Of a stretch of DNA of 62,447 bases, positions 6,536 to 54,420 are shown piece after piece. Each line of letters opens with the position of its first letter. The stretch's first letter is position 1. The position numbers and the translations under genes were made by a program. The notes under the pieces were generated by a model. It was not told the DNA's origin. It saw nothing but the letters and a program-made list of their open reading frames with translations, and searched no databases. This DNA comes from an uncultured archaeon (lineage in GTDB: Archaea > Halobacteriota > Methanosarcinia > Methanosarcinales > Methanoperedenaceae), in contig CABMCA010000124.1 in assembly GCA_902384525.1 (NCBI GenBank), forward strand, positions 1 to 62,447. Direction: 5' to 3'.

Positions 6536-7580
6536 ATACACAATACGGCTCTTCTTCCAGATAATCTCCCGTACCTGCATATGCCCTGGCGCGGCAGCCA
6601 CCGCATACATTTTTATACTCACATAGACCGCATTTGCCTTTCAGCAGTCCGGGGTCGCGAAGGTCGCAAAAAACCTTTGATTTTTCCCATATCATCTTAA
6701 AAGGTTTTTGCTTGATATTCCCGGCAAGAGCTGGTAAATATCCGCATGGATAAACATCGCCTTTACTGGAAACAAAACAGAAGGCTGACCCTCCAAGACA
6801 TCCTTTGGTCATAGCTTCAAGACCATGGGTTTCAGGTGTGACCCGTATCCCTTCTGCCTTTGCACGCTGTCGCATTATCCTGAAATAATGAGGGGCGCAT
6901 GTGGCTTTTAACTGCATTCTTTTATCCTTGCTTTTGTCATAGAACCAGTTAAGCACCCGTTCATATTCCTCAGGCGGGATCTCTTCGGATTCTATTTCTT
7001 CGCCCCTTCCTGTCGGGACAAGAAGGAAAATATGAAGGGCAGATGCTTTGAGTTCAATAGCAAGATCATAGATTTGCGGGATCTCTTTAAGATTTCTCTG
7101 TGTGATCGTGGTATTTATCTGGAAACCCAGACCTTCTTTTTTCAGGATATCAATTGCACGAAGAGATGCTTCAAATGCACCTGGCTCTCCCCTGAAAACA
7201 TCATGCATTTCCCTGGTTGCCCCGTCAATGCTAATGCTTACCCGCTGGATTCCCGCATCTTTTAATTTCCTGGCAATTTCAGGTGTGAGAAGCGTACCAT
7301 TTGTCGCAAGTACCGCACGCATTCCCTTTCCTTTTATATATTGCGCTACCTCATATATATCGGTTCGAAGCAGCGGCTCTCCTCCAGTGAGGATTATTAT
7401 CGGCTTGTACTCGACCAGTTCATCTACGAAATGCTTTGCCTCGGCTGTAGTTAATTCTCCGGGCTGCGGCTCTTTAATTGCTGATGCCCTGCAGTGGATG
7501 CAGGCAAGGTTGCAGGCATTGGTCAGCTCCCATGCGATGAGTCTTGGGGGTTTAACTTTTTGTTCTATCAATAAAATCAC
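6516..7580 (-). CDS. ahbD: Radical SAM haem b synthase AhbD-like
   Basis: AhbD converts Fe-coproporphyrin III to haem b by oxidative decarboxylation of two propionates. The 354-aa protein has the radical SAM cluster motif C-N-L-A-C-I-H-C (about residues 23-30), the TGGEPLLR motif, and a C-terminal SPASM-like cysteine set ([24 protein letters not shown]) for an auxiliary [4Fe-4S] cluster. The opening [17 protein letters not shown] is closer to AhbD than to AhbC, as I remember the families. It is followed directly by the siroheme decarboxylase gene, and a CcmD-like gene is divergent from it. AhbC or a peptide-modifying SPASM enzyme are the alternatives. Confidence 0.82.
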
Positions 7581-50284: not shown

Positions 50285-51046
50285 ATGTATATATTTGATT
50301 ATAAAGAATTAATAAAAAACCTCGTGATAAGCGACCTCAAGACAAAATATTCAAATTCAGCCCTTGGTTTTGTCTGGTCTATGCTGAATCCTCTTTTGAT
50401 GATGCTCGTTCTTTATCTGGTTTTCAATAATGTCTTCCACAATAACCAGGAGCATTTTGCGCTGTATATTCTCATTGGCCTGACAGGCTGGAGATTTTTT
50501 TCCCTTGGTACCTCAATGGCCATGTCCTCTATCGTGGGAAGATCAAGTCTTGTTACAAAGATCTACATACCCAGGGAGATACTCACCATCAGCGTTGTGC
50601 TGTCTGCATTGGTCAGCTCTCTCCTTGAATTCCTTGTGCTAATACCCCTTTTAATCATATTCGGCGTCGGTCTTTCGGCCACAATCCTCCTGTTCCCTGC
50701 TCTCCATGTCCTGTATTTCCTGATAGTGTATGGAATCTCACTCTCTCTTGCTTCTCTTTACGTCTATTACAGGGACATTAACCAGATATGGGAAGTCCTT
50801 CTTCAGATAGGGTTTTTCCTGTCCCCCATCGTTTACCCGATTTCACTGATACCTGAGAAATACAAGCTTTATTACATGCTCAATCCCATCACAAGGTTGA
50901 TCGAAATGTACAGGGATACACTCTTATATGGAAGACTGCCAGGATTCACTGATTTCGGCCTGGTGCTGGTGTTTGGGATCATTATGCTCGTCTTCGGTTC
51001 ATGGTTGTTTCGAAGGCTGTCTCCCAGGTTTGCAGAGGAGGTGTAG
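50285..51046 (+). CDS. wzm: ABC-2 polysaccharide exporter permease, Wzm type
   Basis: A 253-aa membrane protein of O-antigen/teichoic acid ABC exporters. It has the cytoplasmic start KELIKNLVISDLKTKYSNSALGFVWSMLNPLL, six hydrophobic segments, and the loop VYYRDINQIWEVLLQIGFFLSPIVYP typical of Wzm/RfbA-type permeases. Its ATPase partner Wzt is not adjacent; it lies about 2.1 kb downstream, beyond a toxin-antitoxin and repeat island. The 42-base gap after rfbA suggests one operon with the rhamnose genes. Confidence 0.92.
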   Translation: MYIFDYKELIKNLVISDLKTKYSNSALGFVWSMLNPLLMMLVLYLVFNNVFHNNQEHFALYILIGLTGWRFFSLGTSMAMSSIVGRSSLVTKIYIPREILTISVVLSALVSSLLEFLVLIPLLIIFGVGLSATILLFPALHVLYFLIVYGISLSLASLYVYYRDINQIWEVLLQIGFFLSPIVYPISLIPEKYKLYYMLNPITRLIEMYRDTLLYGRLPGFTDFGLVLVFGIIMLVFGSWLFRRLSPRFAEEV

Positions 51047-51330
51047 CTGTTCTGGCCGCTCTAAAAAGAAACAGGACGTCATCAATTGCTATAACGGGCG
51101 CTGGGGTTGCGACCCCATACCCCAACGGAAGCGCCGCCTCTGGCGGGATTTAGCATAAAATCATCTCTTGCATGGGATGCAATCCATCCCTTATTTCCTT
51201 CTTGTCTTTTATTTTTGCCAAACCCATCAAGCGTCAGCAGGACTTGACTGGAAGCCCATATATAGTTGCAATACGATAATATTATCATGATTCAACAGTT
51301 CATAAATTTCTCAAGCGGGATATAGGCGCG
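51047..51330. other. GC-rich structured intergenic island
   Basis: Downstream of wzm no gene is visible. Several hairpins are: TGGGGT/ACCCCA with TGCG loop (51102-51117) inside GGCGC/GCGCC (51097-51101 with 51131-51135); CCGCC/GGCGG (51134-51146, competing with the outer stem); and GGGATG/CATCCC around 51174-51190. The complement of 51131-51139 contains GAGGCGGC, also present in repeat B at 52301. It could be a structured RNA or a decayed mobile-element end. Confidence 0.45.
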
Positions 51331-51402
51331 CCTGGCGACTGCGGCGGCAGGTGTTCTGCTGCCAATGATTACTAGGGGATAAGTTAGTGGTGAGGGGGAT
51401 GG
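51331..51402 (+). repeat. GC/G-rich repeat copy A
   Basis: Begins CCTGGCGACTGCGGCGGC and ends with GGTGAGGGGGATGG. It matches copy B (52291-52361) in order and spacing: CCTGGCG, GGCGGC, GGTGTT, GGGGATAAG, GGTGAGGGGGATGG. It contains a hairpin GGCGGCAG/CTGCTGCC (one G-U pair). It lies 112 bases upstream of the ribbon-helix-helix antitoxin gene. Confidence 0.7.
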
Positions 51403-51514
51403 ATTACTGATATTATGGCACATTGTAAATCCTGTCAGAAATCGATTTTTTTATTTCATCGCTATCAATAGAAGCTGGCAACTTATAAATACTATTAAAT
51501 CACTATAAATTTTT

Positions 51515-51763
51515 ATGACTGAAACTACAACATTAACACTAAAATTCAAAGGAATCGAGGCACATCTTCTTAAACAGATGGTTGATCTGGGCTTATTCAA
51601 CAACAAATCAGAGGCAATCAGATCAGCATTAATAAAATATGCTATAGACCTTAACCTGCTTGATAAAAAAACAATATGGCAGGAGATACAGGCAAATAAA
51701 AAGAGAAAAGTCAGCCCCGAACAACTCATTGTAGATATTCAGAGTATACGTGATGAAGCATAG
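51515..51763 (+). CDS. Ribbon-helix-helix antitoxin (VapB-like)
   Basis: An 82-aa DNA-binding antitoxin. The N-terminal half is a ribbon-helix-helix domain (LTLKFKGIEAHLLKQMVDLG, then NNKSEAIRSALIKYAI). The Lys-rich C-terminal tail (NKKRKVSPEQLIVDIQSI) would bind and block the toxin. It overlaps the PIN-toxin gene by 11 bases, the usual antitoxin-first order, and probably represses the pair. Confidence 0.85.
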   Translation: MTETTTLTLKFKGIEAHLLKQMVDLGLFNNKSEAIRSALIKYAIDLNLLDKKTIWQEIQANKKRKVSPEQLIVDIQSIRDEA

Positions 51764-52178
51764 AATTTTTCTGGATACAAACGTTTTCATATTCGCATTT
51801 GAATATTCCGACTCAAATTCGAATACTATCATAGAACTGCTAAACGATGAAAAAATAGAAGTAGTAATTTCAGAACGCGTAATAAAGGAAGTATATCGTT
51901 ATTTTAAAAAGTATCATGATAAAAAACTTGCAGACAGCTTCAGGAATTTTCTCTATAAAGCCTGCATGATAATACTTGCCAGAGACGTTAAAGACACTAT
52001 GAAAAAATACCGTGGACAAATAAAAGAAAAAGACCTTGAACAATTAGCTGTTGTGAAGAAATATGGAATTAAATATATCATAAGCCTAGACAGGGATTTC
52101 ATAGGGCAGGAAGAATACAGAACACCCAGGCAATTTGTAGAGTTAATTTATGGTAAAAGTAAAGAGAGTGAATTCTGA
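51753..52178 (+). CDS. vapC: PIN-domain toxin (VapC-like)
   Basis: A 141-aa PIN ribonuclease. The acidic residues are visible: D7 in RIFLDTNVFIFAF, E in VVISERVIKEVY, and D-x-D in YIISLDRDFIG. Such toxins cut tRNA or rRNA when freed from the antitoxin. ATG 51753 lies inside the antitoxin end, and the frame ends in a Lys/Ser-rich tail. The gene is more AT-rich than the wzm gene upstream, suggesting separate acquisition. Confidence 0.85.
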   Translation: MKHRIFLDTNVFIFAFEYSDSNSNTIIELLNDEKIEVVISERVIKEVYRYFKKYHDKKLADSFRNFLYKACMIILARDVKDTMKKYRGQIKEKDLEQLAVVKKYGIKYIISLDRDFIGQEEYRTPRQFVELIYGKSKESEF

Positions 52179-52290
52179 ATTTATTCTTTTTACTTTATGA
52201 TGAACCAGTGCTTTAGACGCATTCTGTATTCTCTGTGCACTGAGGTTTTTTTTTAAACGGAATATATTAAAAATAACTATAACTAAATTT

Positions 52291-52361
52291 CCTGGCGCCT
52301 GAGGCGGCGGGTGTTGGGCTGATAAGGAGTATTTGGGGATAAGGTGAGGTGAGGGGGATGG
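52291..52361 (+). repeat. GC/G-rich repeat copy B
   Basis: Direct copy of repeat A, preceded by AATTT: CCTGGCGCCTGAGGCGGCGG, then GGTGTTGGGCTG, TTGGGGATAAGG and GGTGAGGGGGATGG. It lies between the VapBC-like and the BrnT-like modules. Its G-runs could form a G-quadruplex on the + strand. Confidence 0.7.
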
Positions 52362-52406
52362 TTTTTTGAGACCTCCCTTCCAAAAAAACTGTGAATACAG
52401 GTTGGT

Positions 52407-52586
52407 TTATTTATTCGTTGGACGAATTTTTCTTATATTTTTTTTCTTTGGTGGATAACGTACTGAGCTCAAATTAGCTTCGATAGGGCCTTCCCATCTC
52501 TGGAATTTATCCGGATCCTCATCAATAAGCTTAAGGAGATCGTCCTCATCTTTTCCTTCATATCTCTTAGCTTTCATAATATTCAT
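52407..52586 (-). CDS. Putative antitoxin of the BrnT-like toxin (59 aa)
   Basis: A short ORF not reported by usual length limits. The N-terminus (MKAKRYEGKDEDDLLKLIDE) is charged, and the C-terminus is a basic, disordered tail (PPKKKNIRKIRPTNK). The ATG overlaps the TGA of the toxin-like gene (ATGA), so translation is coupled. A small basic partner behind a BrnT-like gene is the expected toxin-then-antitoxin order. It lacks an obvious BrnA ribbon-helix-helix, so the family is uncertain. Confidence 0.6.
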   Translation of the reverse strand: MNIMKAKRYEGKDEDDLLKLIDEDPDKFQRWEGPIEANLSSVRYPPKKKNIRKIRPTNK

Positions 52587-52852
52587 TTCGCCTTGTAATC
52601 ATATATCTCTTTGTATTCAGAAGCTATCCTTGCACTAAAGACTTTAAGTTTGTTTCCCCCTAACGATGCTGCTATAACCATTATGAGTCTGCCAAATGCA
52701 CTGCCAATTATCTGATAGCGTAATTCTTTGTTGAAATAAATTTTTCTTTTATAGATCTTGCCTTTAAAAATTTGCTCTATTTCATAATCTTTGATCCCAT
52801 GTTTAAAGGCATGCTCGTCAAATTCCAGATCTATTTTTTTCCAATTGACCAT
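52583..52852 (-). CDS. BrnT-like toxin (RelE-fold RNase family)
   Basis: An 89-aa protein. KIDLEFDEHAFKHGIKDYEIEQIFKGK follows the BrnT pattern (hydrophobic-D-x-x-x-x-x-K-H-G-(I/V)...E-(I/V)), then RYQIIGSAFGRLIMVIAAS and KVFSARIASEYKEIYDY matches BrnT R-I-I-S-A-R-x-A-x-x-x-E. BrnT toxins inhibit translation. Gene order toxin-antitoxin fits that family. It is on the minus strand, opposite the VapBC-like pair. Confidence 0.72.
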   Translation of the reverse strand: MVNWKKIDLEFDEHAFKHGIKDYEIEQIFKGKIYKRKIYFNKELRYQIIGSAFGRLIMVIAASLGGNKLKVFSARIASEYKEIYDYKAK

Positions 52853-53178
52853 AAATCAATACCTTGATATGATGAACTATTAAAAATGGTTTTTTGTCAG
52901 CTTTTCTTTTGAGTTTTCAGGTAAATCATGCTTAAATTTATATTTATTTCAATATGAATTTCCTGGCGCTTCGCGGAATCCAGAGCAACAATCGGATAGA
53001 TGGAAACTATAAAATTAAAGGGATTCATGAAAATAAAAGATAAGCTTTATGAATTATGTTATCGAATAATGATAGGTCATTCTGAAAAAAACCAAACCAC
53101 AGATGAACGCAGATAAACGCAGATTTAATGCATCGGTATTTATTAACGTCTTCTGTTTATTATAACCAAAACTCATCA
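52853..53178. other. Intergenic region before wzt with partial repeat C
   Basis: A third, short copy of the repeat start (AATTTCCTGGCGCTTCGCGG, 52957-52976) lies here in the same orientation as A and B; the G-rich second half is missing. A 38-codon ORF (from 53000) shows no domain and is probably spurious. At 53095-53125 the repeated unit ACGCAGAT follows an ACCACAGATGA start. Confidence 0.5.
53095..53125 (+). repeat. Short dispersed repeat with ACGCAGAT units
   Basis: ACCACAGATGA is followed by AACGCAGATAAACGCAGAT, two direct copies of ACGCAGAT. Very similar intergenic sequences recur in many prokaryotic genomes, as I remember. It directly precedes the upstream possible start of wzt. Confidence 0.5.
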
Positions 53179-54420
53179 ATGTTCGACCTCCAAACCCCCA
53201 AACAACCATCTGAAGACGCAATCATAGTCCAGAACGTCTCCAAGCATTTTCGCATCCCCCACGAGAAGAGAACAAAGCTGTTCGAACACATCACCGGCGC
53301 ACTCAAAGGTACAACCTCAACCTACGAAGAATTCTGGGCAGTAAAAGATGTAAGCTTCACCGTAAAAAAAGGTGAAACCTTAGGTATCATCGGCGAGAAC
53401 GGCAGCGGAAAAAGCACCCTTCTGAAGATTATCGCAGGCGTACTCACCCCCGACTCAGGTTCTGTCAAAGTGAACGGCAAAATTGCTCCTTTTCTGGAAC
53501 TGGGCGTTGGCTTCAACCCTGAACTCACAGCAGAGGACAATGTCCGACTCTACGGCGCGATCATGGGGATGTCGAAAAAGGAGATGGAGGATAAGTTCGA
53601 AGAGATATTCGAGTTCGCAGATCTTGAGAAGTTCAGGAACATGAAGCTTAAAAATTTTTCGAGCGGGATGTACGCCCGTCTTGCTTTCGCGACTGCGGCG
53701 GCGACAGATCCTGATATTTTGCTGATCGATGAGGTATTATCGGTTGGAGATCTGGGTTTTCAGAGAAAGTGCTTTGAAAGGATCGATGAATTCAAAAGAA
53801 GTGGTAAAACTATTGTTTTTGTGTCGCATGATACTGGTTCAATAAAGAAACTCTGTAAGATTTCGGTGTTTCTTGAGCATGGAGAGGTTCGATTTATGGG
53901 AACCACAGAAAAAGTTCTGTATTCTTATAACTCATATATGATTGATAAAGAAATTAGAGAATTTAACAAATCTACAAAAAAAGATGAACCAAAGGATCGA
54001 TGGGGTACAAGAGAGATCGAAATACTTGACGTGAAAACTTTAGATGAAAAGAATATTGAAAATCATTCATTCAAGACAGGGGATAAAATCCGATATCAGA
54101 TAAGTTATAAAGTCAATAAGGATTTTTCCGATCCTACATTTGGATTTGGGTTATATGCAAATAACGGTACATACATATACGGAACTACAACAAAACTGGA
54201 TGATTTTTCATTAAAATTACCACAAAACAATGGAATGATTTATTTAGATATTGATAATTTTTTACTTTCCGGAACTTTTCTCATTTCTGTAGGAGTCTGG
54301 TCAGGTGATGATTGGTTGAAACCATACGATGTTCATGATAAAATGTACTCGTTCAAAATAATTTTTGATAAAAAATATGACGGCATTGTTAAAATGCCCA
54401 GCAAGTGGAGTAGCAATTAA
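53179..54420 (+). CDS. wzt: ABC polysaccharide exporter ATPase Wzt with C-terminal glycan-binding domain
   Basis: A 413-aa ATPase of O-antigen-type exporters. Residues ~10-250 form the nucleotide-binding domain: DAIIVQNVSKHFRIPHEK, Walker A GIIGENGSGKSTL, the signature LKNFSSGMYARLAFATA, Walker B PDILLIDEVLSVGD and the switch VSHDTG. Residues ~280-405 form a beta-sandwich like the Wzt C-terminal domain that reads the chain end cap (IEILDVKTLDEKN, FGFGLYANNG, YDVHDKMYSFKI). Start 53179 is preferred; a codon at 53128 is possible. Two sample 60-base rows are 29/60 GC in the ATPase half and 20/60 and 19/60 in the end-domain half, so the gene looks mosaic. Confidence 0.92.
   Translation: MFDLQTPKQPSEDAIIVQNVSKHFRIPHEKRTKLFEHITGALKGTTSTYEEFWAVKDVSFTVKKGETLGIIGENGSGKSTLLKIIAGVLTPDSGSVKVNGKIAPFLELGVGFNPELTAEDNVRLYGAIMGMSKKEMEDKFEEIFEFADLEKFRNMKLKNFSSGMYARLAFATAAATDPDILLIDEVLSVGDLGFQRKCFERIDEFKRSGKTIVFVSHDTGSIKKLCKISVFLEHGEVRFMGTTEKVLYSYNSYMIDKEIREFNKSTKKDEPKDRWGTREIEILDVKTLDEKNIENHSFKTGDKIRYQISYKVNKDFSDPTFGFGLYANNGTYIYGTTTKLDDFSLKLPQNNGMIYLDIDNFLLSGTFLISVGVWSGDDWLKPYDVHDKMYSFKIIFDKKYDGIVKMPSKWSSN

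Follow-up and report, generated by a model that had tools for sequence, protein, structure and literature searches.

Toxin–antitoxin modules and scars of truncated wzt copies between the glycan-exporter genes wzm and wzt of an uncultured Methanoperedenaceae archaeon

The analysis of the window, i.e., the whole stretch of 62,447 nt that was examined (contig CABMCA010000124.1, positions 1 to 62,447, assembly GCA_902384525.1, the genome of a methane-oxidising Candidatus Methanoperedens), indicated that the interval between wzm and wzt contains toxin–antitoxin (TA) modules bordered by the scars of truncated wzt genes. In its three nearest named relatives, Methanoperedens BLZ2, E14_concoct.bin.71 (E14), and Ig 1 (Ig1), the truncated copies (stubs, ~500 nt) are intact and form arrays with TA modules between them. 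We consider it fairly probable that the island in the window is an eroded tandem array of this kind, grown and remodelled by homologous recombination between wzt 5′ halves.

Both exporter genes are intact in the window. The wzm gene (50285..51046, + strand) encodes an ABC-2 permease (Pfam ABC2_membrane, E=9e-21) and shares 95% DNA identity with wzm of BLZ2, while the single full-length wzt (53179..54420, + strand) encodes an ATPase with a Wzt_C domain (ABC_tran, E=5e-27; Wzt_C, E=8e-26). Together they carry the family domains of the Wzm–Wzt (ABC-dependent O-antigen/galactan) exporter; in contrast to that system, they are not adjacent and remains of truncated wzt copies lie between them. The 2.1-kb split described by the first-pass annotation was thus borne out, as was the absence of a transposase: neither a transposase nor an integrase was present among the proteins scanned in the island. 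The empty sites that it had proposed to look for were found in relatives, since 11 other Methanoperedens genomes bear a single wzt that starts within 27 nt of the end of the wzm match, and in MnB_21 a single wzt with a similar leader is situated 330 nt from wzm. Two other arrangements were observed at this locus: in Ig1 (G002, contig C105) the genes found ~30 nt after wzm are not wzt but convergent trp genes, the array contigs being unplaced, and in G028 (contig C182) wzm and a partial wzt lie on opposite strands, pointing towards each other.

Near wzm lies a dispersed repeat (51097..51173, no strand assigned), unrelated to the repeats discussed below, with matches in over 15 genomes on numerous contigs that are not linked to each other. 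It is a GC-rich, REP-like element of ~77 nt with short palindromes, often present in several copies per Methanoperedens genome. Downstream of it are the first seven codons (MIQQFIN) and the upstream sequence of an archaeal ATPase_2/DUF234 gene (51262..51307, + strand; 97% identity over 29 nt to the gene start in G004), fused to the left edge of the first scar. In G004, an intact relative of this gene is located between wzm and wzt. At the other end of the interval, full-length wzt is preceded by a leader (52941..53178, + strand), which is also found before the wzt copies of BLZ2, E14, Ig1, and MnB_21. This leader includes a second dispersed repeat, 'CACAGATGAACGCAGATAAACGCAGAT' (~53080-53141), which occurs in many genomes of the order.

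The VapBC-like and BrnT-like modules reported earlier between the exporter genes were recovered (51515-52178, + strand, and 52407-52852, − strand). The first comprises a VapB-like (ribbon-helix-helix) antitoxin gene (51515..51763, + strand), an ORF with a weak NCBIfam match to the CdrS regulator that pairs with a VapC-like PIN toxin gene (51750..52178, + strand; Pfam PIN, E=1e-10; TIGR00305 above its cut-off). The two ORFs overlap at 51750-51763, and this layout of a PIN toxin with a small antitoxin gene upstream is that of VapBC, so the pair is predicted to be a VapBC-type TA module. The second comprises a toxin gene (52583..52852, − strand; Pfam BrnT_toxin, E=1e-6), whose 29.5 bits against a family cut-off of 34.5 allow it to be called BrnT-like only, and an overlapping small gene for a putative antitoxin (52407..52586, − strand), which has no family match and also lies beside brnT in BLZ2. 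Relatives of this vapBC occur elsewhere without wzt flanks, so the TA modules probably entered the locus from outside.

The first-pass annotation had further described copies A, B, and C of one GC-rich repeat bracketing these modules. Repeats A and B are genuine: they align over ~75 nt with 80% identity and a score of 73, far above the best of 300 shuffles (27), and match each other with E=8e-12 in a search of the whole genome. The supposed partial copy C is not a third one. It gave nothing significant against A, its score of 26 equalled that of the best shuffle (26), and it has in common with the left edge of B one 13-nt string (AATTTCCTGGCGC), which belongs to the wzt leader. Nor were additional copies found when the genome was searched as the annotation had suggested; apart from A and B themselves, repeat A returned one chance-level 16-nt match and wzt, within the ABC signature motif at 53652-53702 (E=0.007).

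This last match reveals what the repeats are. The left part of scar A (51304..51348, + strand) corresponds to wzt nt ~479-530, and its aligned part reads through the signature motif ...FSSG as wzt does and then reaches an in-frame stop, while the left part of scar B (52223..52299, + strand) is the start of the wzt leader and matches the leaders of truncated wzt copies in E14. The right half of each is a conserved junction element of ~65-95 nt, hereafter RHE (consensus TGAGGCGGCGGGTGTTCCGCTGnCAATGAGTGCTGGGGGATAAGTTCGAGGTGAGGGGGATGG...), located at 51340..51402 in scar A (+ strand; 86% to the consensus, E=8.5e-15) and at 52300..52361 in scar B (+ strand; 84%, E=2e-12). Hence, scar A keeps ~50 nt of wzt, and scar B is a leader fragment joined directly to RHE, the remaining leader and wzt nt 1-512 having been deleted where BLZ2 keeps an intact unit at the same place. 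By these matches, repeats A and B are what is left of truncated wzt genes and not a free-standing repeat, and both are deletion products of longer units, so that the order of events in the window includes loss. A generic dispersed repeat was rejected as an explanation of A and B, which were found only in arrays. The suggested bracketing of the modules by a GC-rich repeat therefore holds insofar as RHE lies at TA borders, though the repeat is a truncated-wzt scar, and the case is a clear one of island-border 'repeats' that are scars of a truncated neighbouring gene.

The intact arrays show how such scars fit together. Each unit consists of the leader, wzt codons 1 to ~171-190, and a junction, followed by a different TA module each time, and one full-length wzt is present. 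In BLZ2, the order is wzt 1-512 plus RHE, vapBC, leader, wzt 1-512 plus RHE, brnTA, leader, and full wzt, and its wzm-bearing contig holds further stubs and PIN cassettes. The window corresponds to the last two BLZ2 cassettes minus the stubs, because the scars are colinear with BLZ2 units and DNA identity is 98% for the vapBC block and 93% for brnTA. E14 bears at least eight truncated wzt copies over about 20 kb on three contigs, and Ig1 at least four; since these contigs are short and break off within repeats, part of the physical order is inferred. The cargo encompasses several VapBC/PIN modules, TumE, Fic, BrnTA, HicAB, AF2212-PIN, UPF0175, a GNAT acetyltransferase, and a nucleotidyltransferase with a small partner, HEPN-like in appearance and without a Pfam match. 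It is not exclusively TA, since the E14 array also holds two glycosyltransferase genes and an rmlC-like 5′ fragment; the latter is fused to a TumE-like toxin fragment (contig C227, ~6615-6821 as oriented). When arrays were delimited by wzt-bearing contigs and not by TA content, PIN genes numbered 8 against 0.26 expected (P=4e-10), or 7 against 0.24 with the window left out.

Beyond BLZ2, E14, and Ig1, no genome among the 192 of the class had several truncated copies of this wzt. A viral origin was considered and rejected, as wzt 1-190 gave only one distant relative in viral contigs. The RHE itself was found in 4 of 31 Methanoperedens genomes and was absent from MnB_21; every copy lies inside stub-TA arrays, so that the proposed link between repeats and cassette borders held for RHE in all four genomes carrying it. 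Derivation of RHE from decayed wzt could not be demonstrated, its alignment to wzt codons 166-233 not exceeding dinucleotide shuffles (P 0.18-0.89), and a structured RNA or attC-like hairpin was rejected because a consensus structure and a conserved hairpin are absent; no Rfam match was found in 50900-53400.

The regularity of the junctions could be read as site-specific integration. A trans-acting recombinase would insert TA elements at wzt ~codon 171, in the signature motif, with RHE as the left end of the element and the leader plus wzt 1-171 as its right end, restoring the gene, a habit common among integrative elements. RHE is conserved at one end only, and the wzt-RHE joint is identical (nt ~512) in BLZ2 copies c1 and c2, in Ig1, and in two short E14 scars, thus recurring in several copies from three genomes; the layout of the BLZ2 and E14 arrays, with an intact wzt at one end and a truncated copy at the other, is also that of a restored gene, and the copies of a second wzt paralog described below break just after the same motif. 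We nevertheless hold this explanation to be unlikely. No integrase or transposase was recognised in the array stretches examined (the cargo ORFs listed for BLZ2, E14, and Ig1), RHE lacks a conserved hairpin, and one inherited ancestral joint predicts the common joint equally well. Furthermore, the stub ends vary from codon ~162 to ~217.

Our preferred reading, recombination between wzt 5′ halves, draws on the array anatomy in the three relatives, the colinear scars of the window, the confinement of RHE to arrays and its shared joint, the empty sites, the TA cargo, the second wzt paralog, and exchange among the copies. The last is supported by a PHI test, which gave P<=1/1000 for 12 copies with 50-nt windows and a weaker signal with wider ones (P=0.19; nt 0-400, w=100), and by mosaic identities: along BLZ2 copy c2, identity to the window wzt falls from 98% to 75%. 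The stub tree clusters partially by genome (E14 b/c/d/full, support 99/95). Under this model, donor DNA carrying RHE, a TA module, the leader, and a wzt 5′ half, either a circle that had popped out or part of an array from a different strain, would undergo ordinary homologous recombination with the resident wzt, crossing over in its 5′ half, which would leave a truncated wzt upstream and always rebuild an intact one downstream. Insertion would be cost-free because the intact wzt is always rebuilt. The stubs would then act as homology for more gain, exchange, and deletion, and TA addiction would oppose the loss of cassettes; nearly all cargo may be TA because it makes loss costly. This single step would account for the upstream truncation, the rebuilt wzt, the inherited joint, the mosaics, and the lack of a recombinase. 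Several points speak against it: neither a circle or other excised form nor a transfer was seen, the PHI signal is weaker in wide windows, RHE is not demonstrably derived from wzt, the Ig1 arrays are unplaced, and some stubs break at other points (codons ~162-217) and lack RHE, so that not all junctions come from one event. The stepwise capture by repeat recombination put forward by the first-pass annotation thereby survives in altered form: in view of the PHI test and the mosaic copies it is the best current model, yet the recombining sequence is not a generic repeat, and the history in the window includes loss, both scars being deletion products.

Between stubs, 9-23% of DNA sites differ, but the proteins differ little (mean dN 0.07, dS 0.96; dN/dS about 0.07), and eight of them keep an open frame of 177-201 codons. 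These eight frames, the low dN/dS, and the conserved stop codon supplied by RHE would suit truncated Wzt proteins that are functional, e.g., as exporter regulators or dimer partners, and for which the array is kept. Such a role is, however, highly improbable: a Walker A glycine is lost in two stubs (G77V, G75S), the window lost both stubs yet keeps wzt, and at sites that are otherwise invariant, tip-unique amino-acid changes were more numerous in stubs than in full genes (P=0.01 with the outgroup, 0.23 without). The stubs have the appearance of sequences that were disabled or recombined not long ago, and not of maintained proteins.

The same divergence bears on serial illegitimate insertion and allele replacement, by which exchanges of the glycan cluster would bring a new wzt beside the old one and TA genes would end up in the decaying remains by chance; the array would then be a fossil record with no mobile unit. 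DNA-diverged stubs that keep their protein sequence, as if functional until recently, and that are richer in unusual amino-acid changes, Walker A included, agree with such a history, as do the other gene stubs in the arrays (ATPase_2, rmlC-like). It leaves unexplained both the conserved RHE at 14 borders and the almost purely TA cargo, and we find it rather doubtful.

Related layouts were present at other wzt genes. Contig C19 of E14 carries a second wzt paralog, only 47% identical, arranged as leader plus truncated wzt, an AbrB-like/PIN pair, leader plus truncated wzt, and a RelE-like gene (AbrB and RelE assigned by eye, without a Pfam match), with the truncated copies disrupted just after the signature motif. 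In G003, the space between wzm and wzt is occupied by a degraded piece of wzt together with a MazE-like/PIN pair. Because of these similar layouts, the array-forming process does not seem to be tied to one sequence.

Among known systems, the arrays resemble the TA cassettes of superintegrons, such as that of Vibrio cholerae (PMC4032106, PMC12548467). The likeness lies in many different small TA-rich cassettes at one chromosomal site; the differences are that here the host is archaeal, no integrase was found (no tyrosine integrase intI was seen in the array stretches read, which lie on broken contigs), the junction element shows neither the consensus structure of an attC-type site nor a conserved hairpin, and between successive units there are partial copies, 500 nt long, of a host gene.

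Gene-restoring integrative elements are islands that insert site-specifically and bring along a substitute end for the gene they target. The arrays share with them a split target gene with an intact version rebuilt at one end, and differ in unit size (~1-2 kb), in a cargo that is mostly TA, in their many repeats, their variable stub ends, and the lack of a recognised integrase. The pilS, vlsE, and polymorphic-toxin cassette arrays consist of tandem 5′-homologous silent copies used for recombination; as in those, partial copies lie beside one full gene and recombine among themselves, whereas here the copies are of the constant 5′ half, with no variable 3′ half, and TA modules stand between them. 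No such stub-TA array, in Methanoperedens or elsewhere, was found in the open PMC literature searched, which does not prove that none has been described.

The best-known cassette arrays rich in TA modules are those of integrons, which are built by an integrase, and the present case is a comparable archaeal array in which no recombinase was recognised and the borders are partial copies of a host gene. If the proposed mechanism is true, selfish TA modules can mobilise via plain homologous recombination, and a surface-glycan locus that changes fast, and in which genes might otherwise be deleted by recombination, may gain stability from TA addiction. As a tentative extension, which we consider less likely than not, these units might be integrase-free archaeal mobile cassettes, each a TA module with the promoter-proximal half of a glycan-export ATPase gene, that pass from strain to strain by homologous recombination, always rebuild the host gene, and form addictive arrays pinning the surface-glycan locus.

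Two minor observations concern the wider wzt family. Both truncated copies on E14 contig C19 contain an insertion, tens of nt long, that includes two inverted repeats, e.g., CACGTATGC-TGCT-GCATACGTG, located just after the signature motif and near the end point of the stubs in the other array. Additionally, wzm and wzt genes with 71-76% DNA identity to the archaeal pair occur on a contig of a Bacteroidales MAG, reflecting either horizontal transfer or mis-binning.
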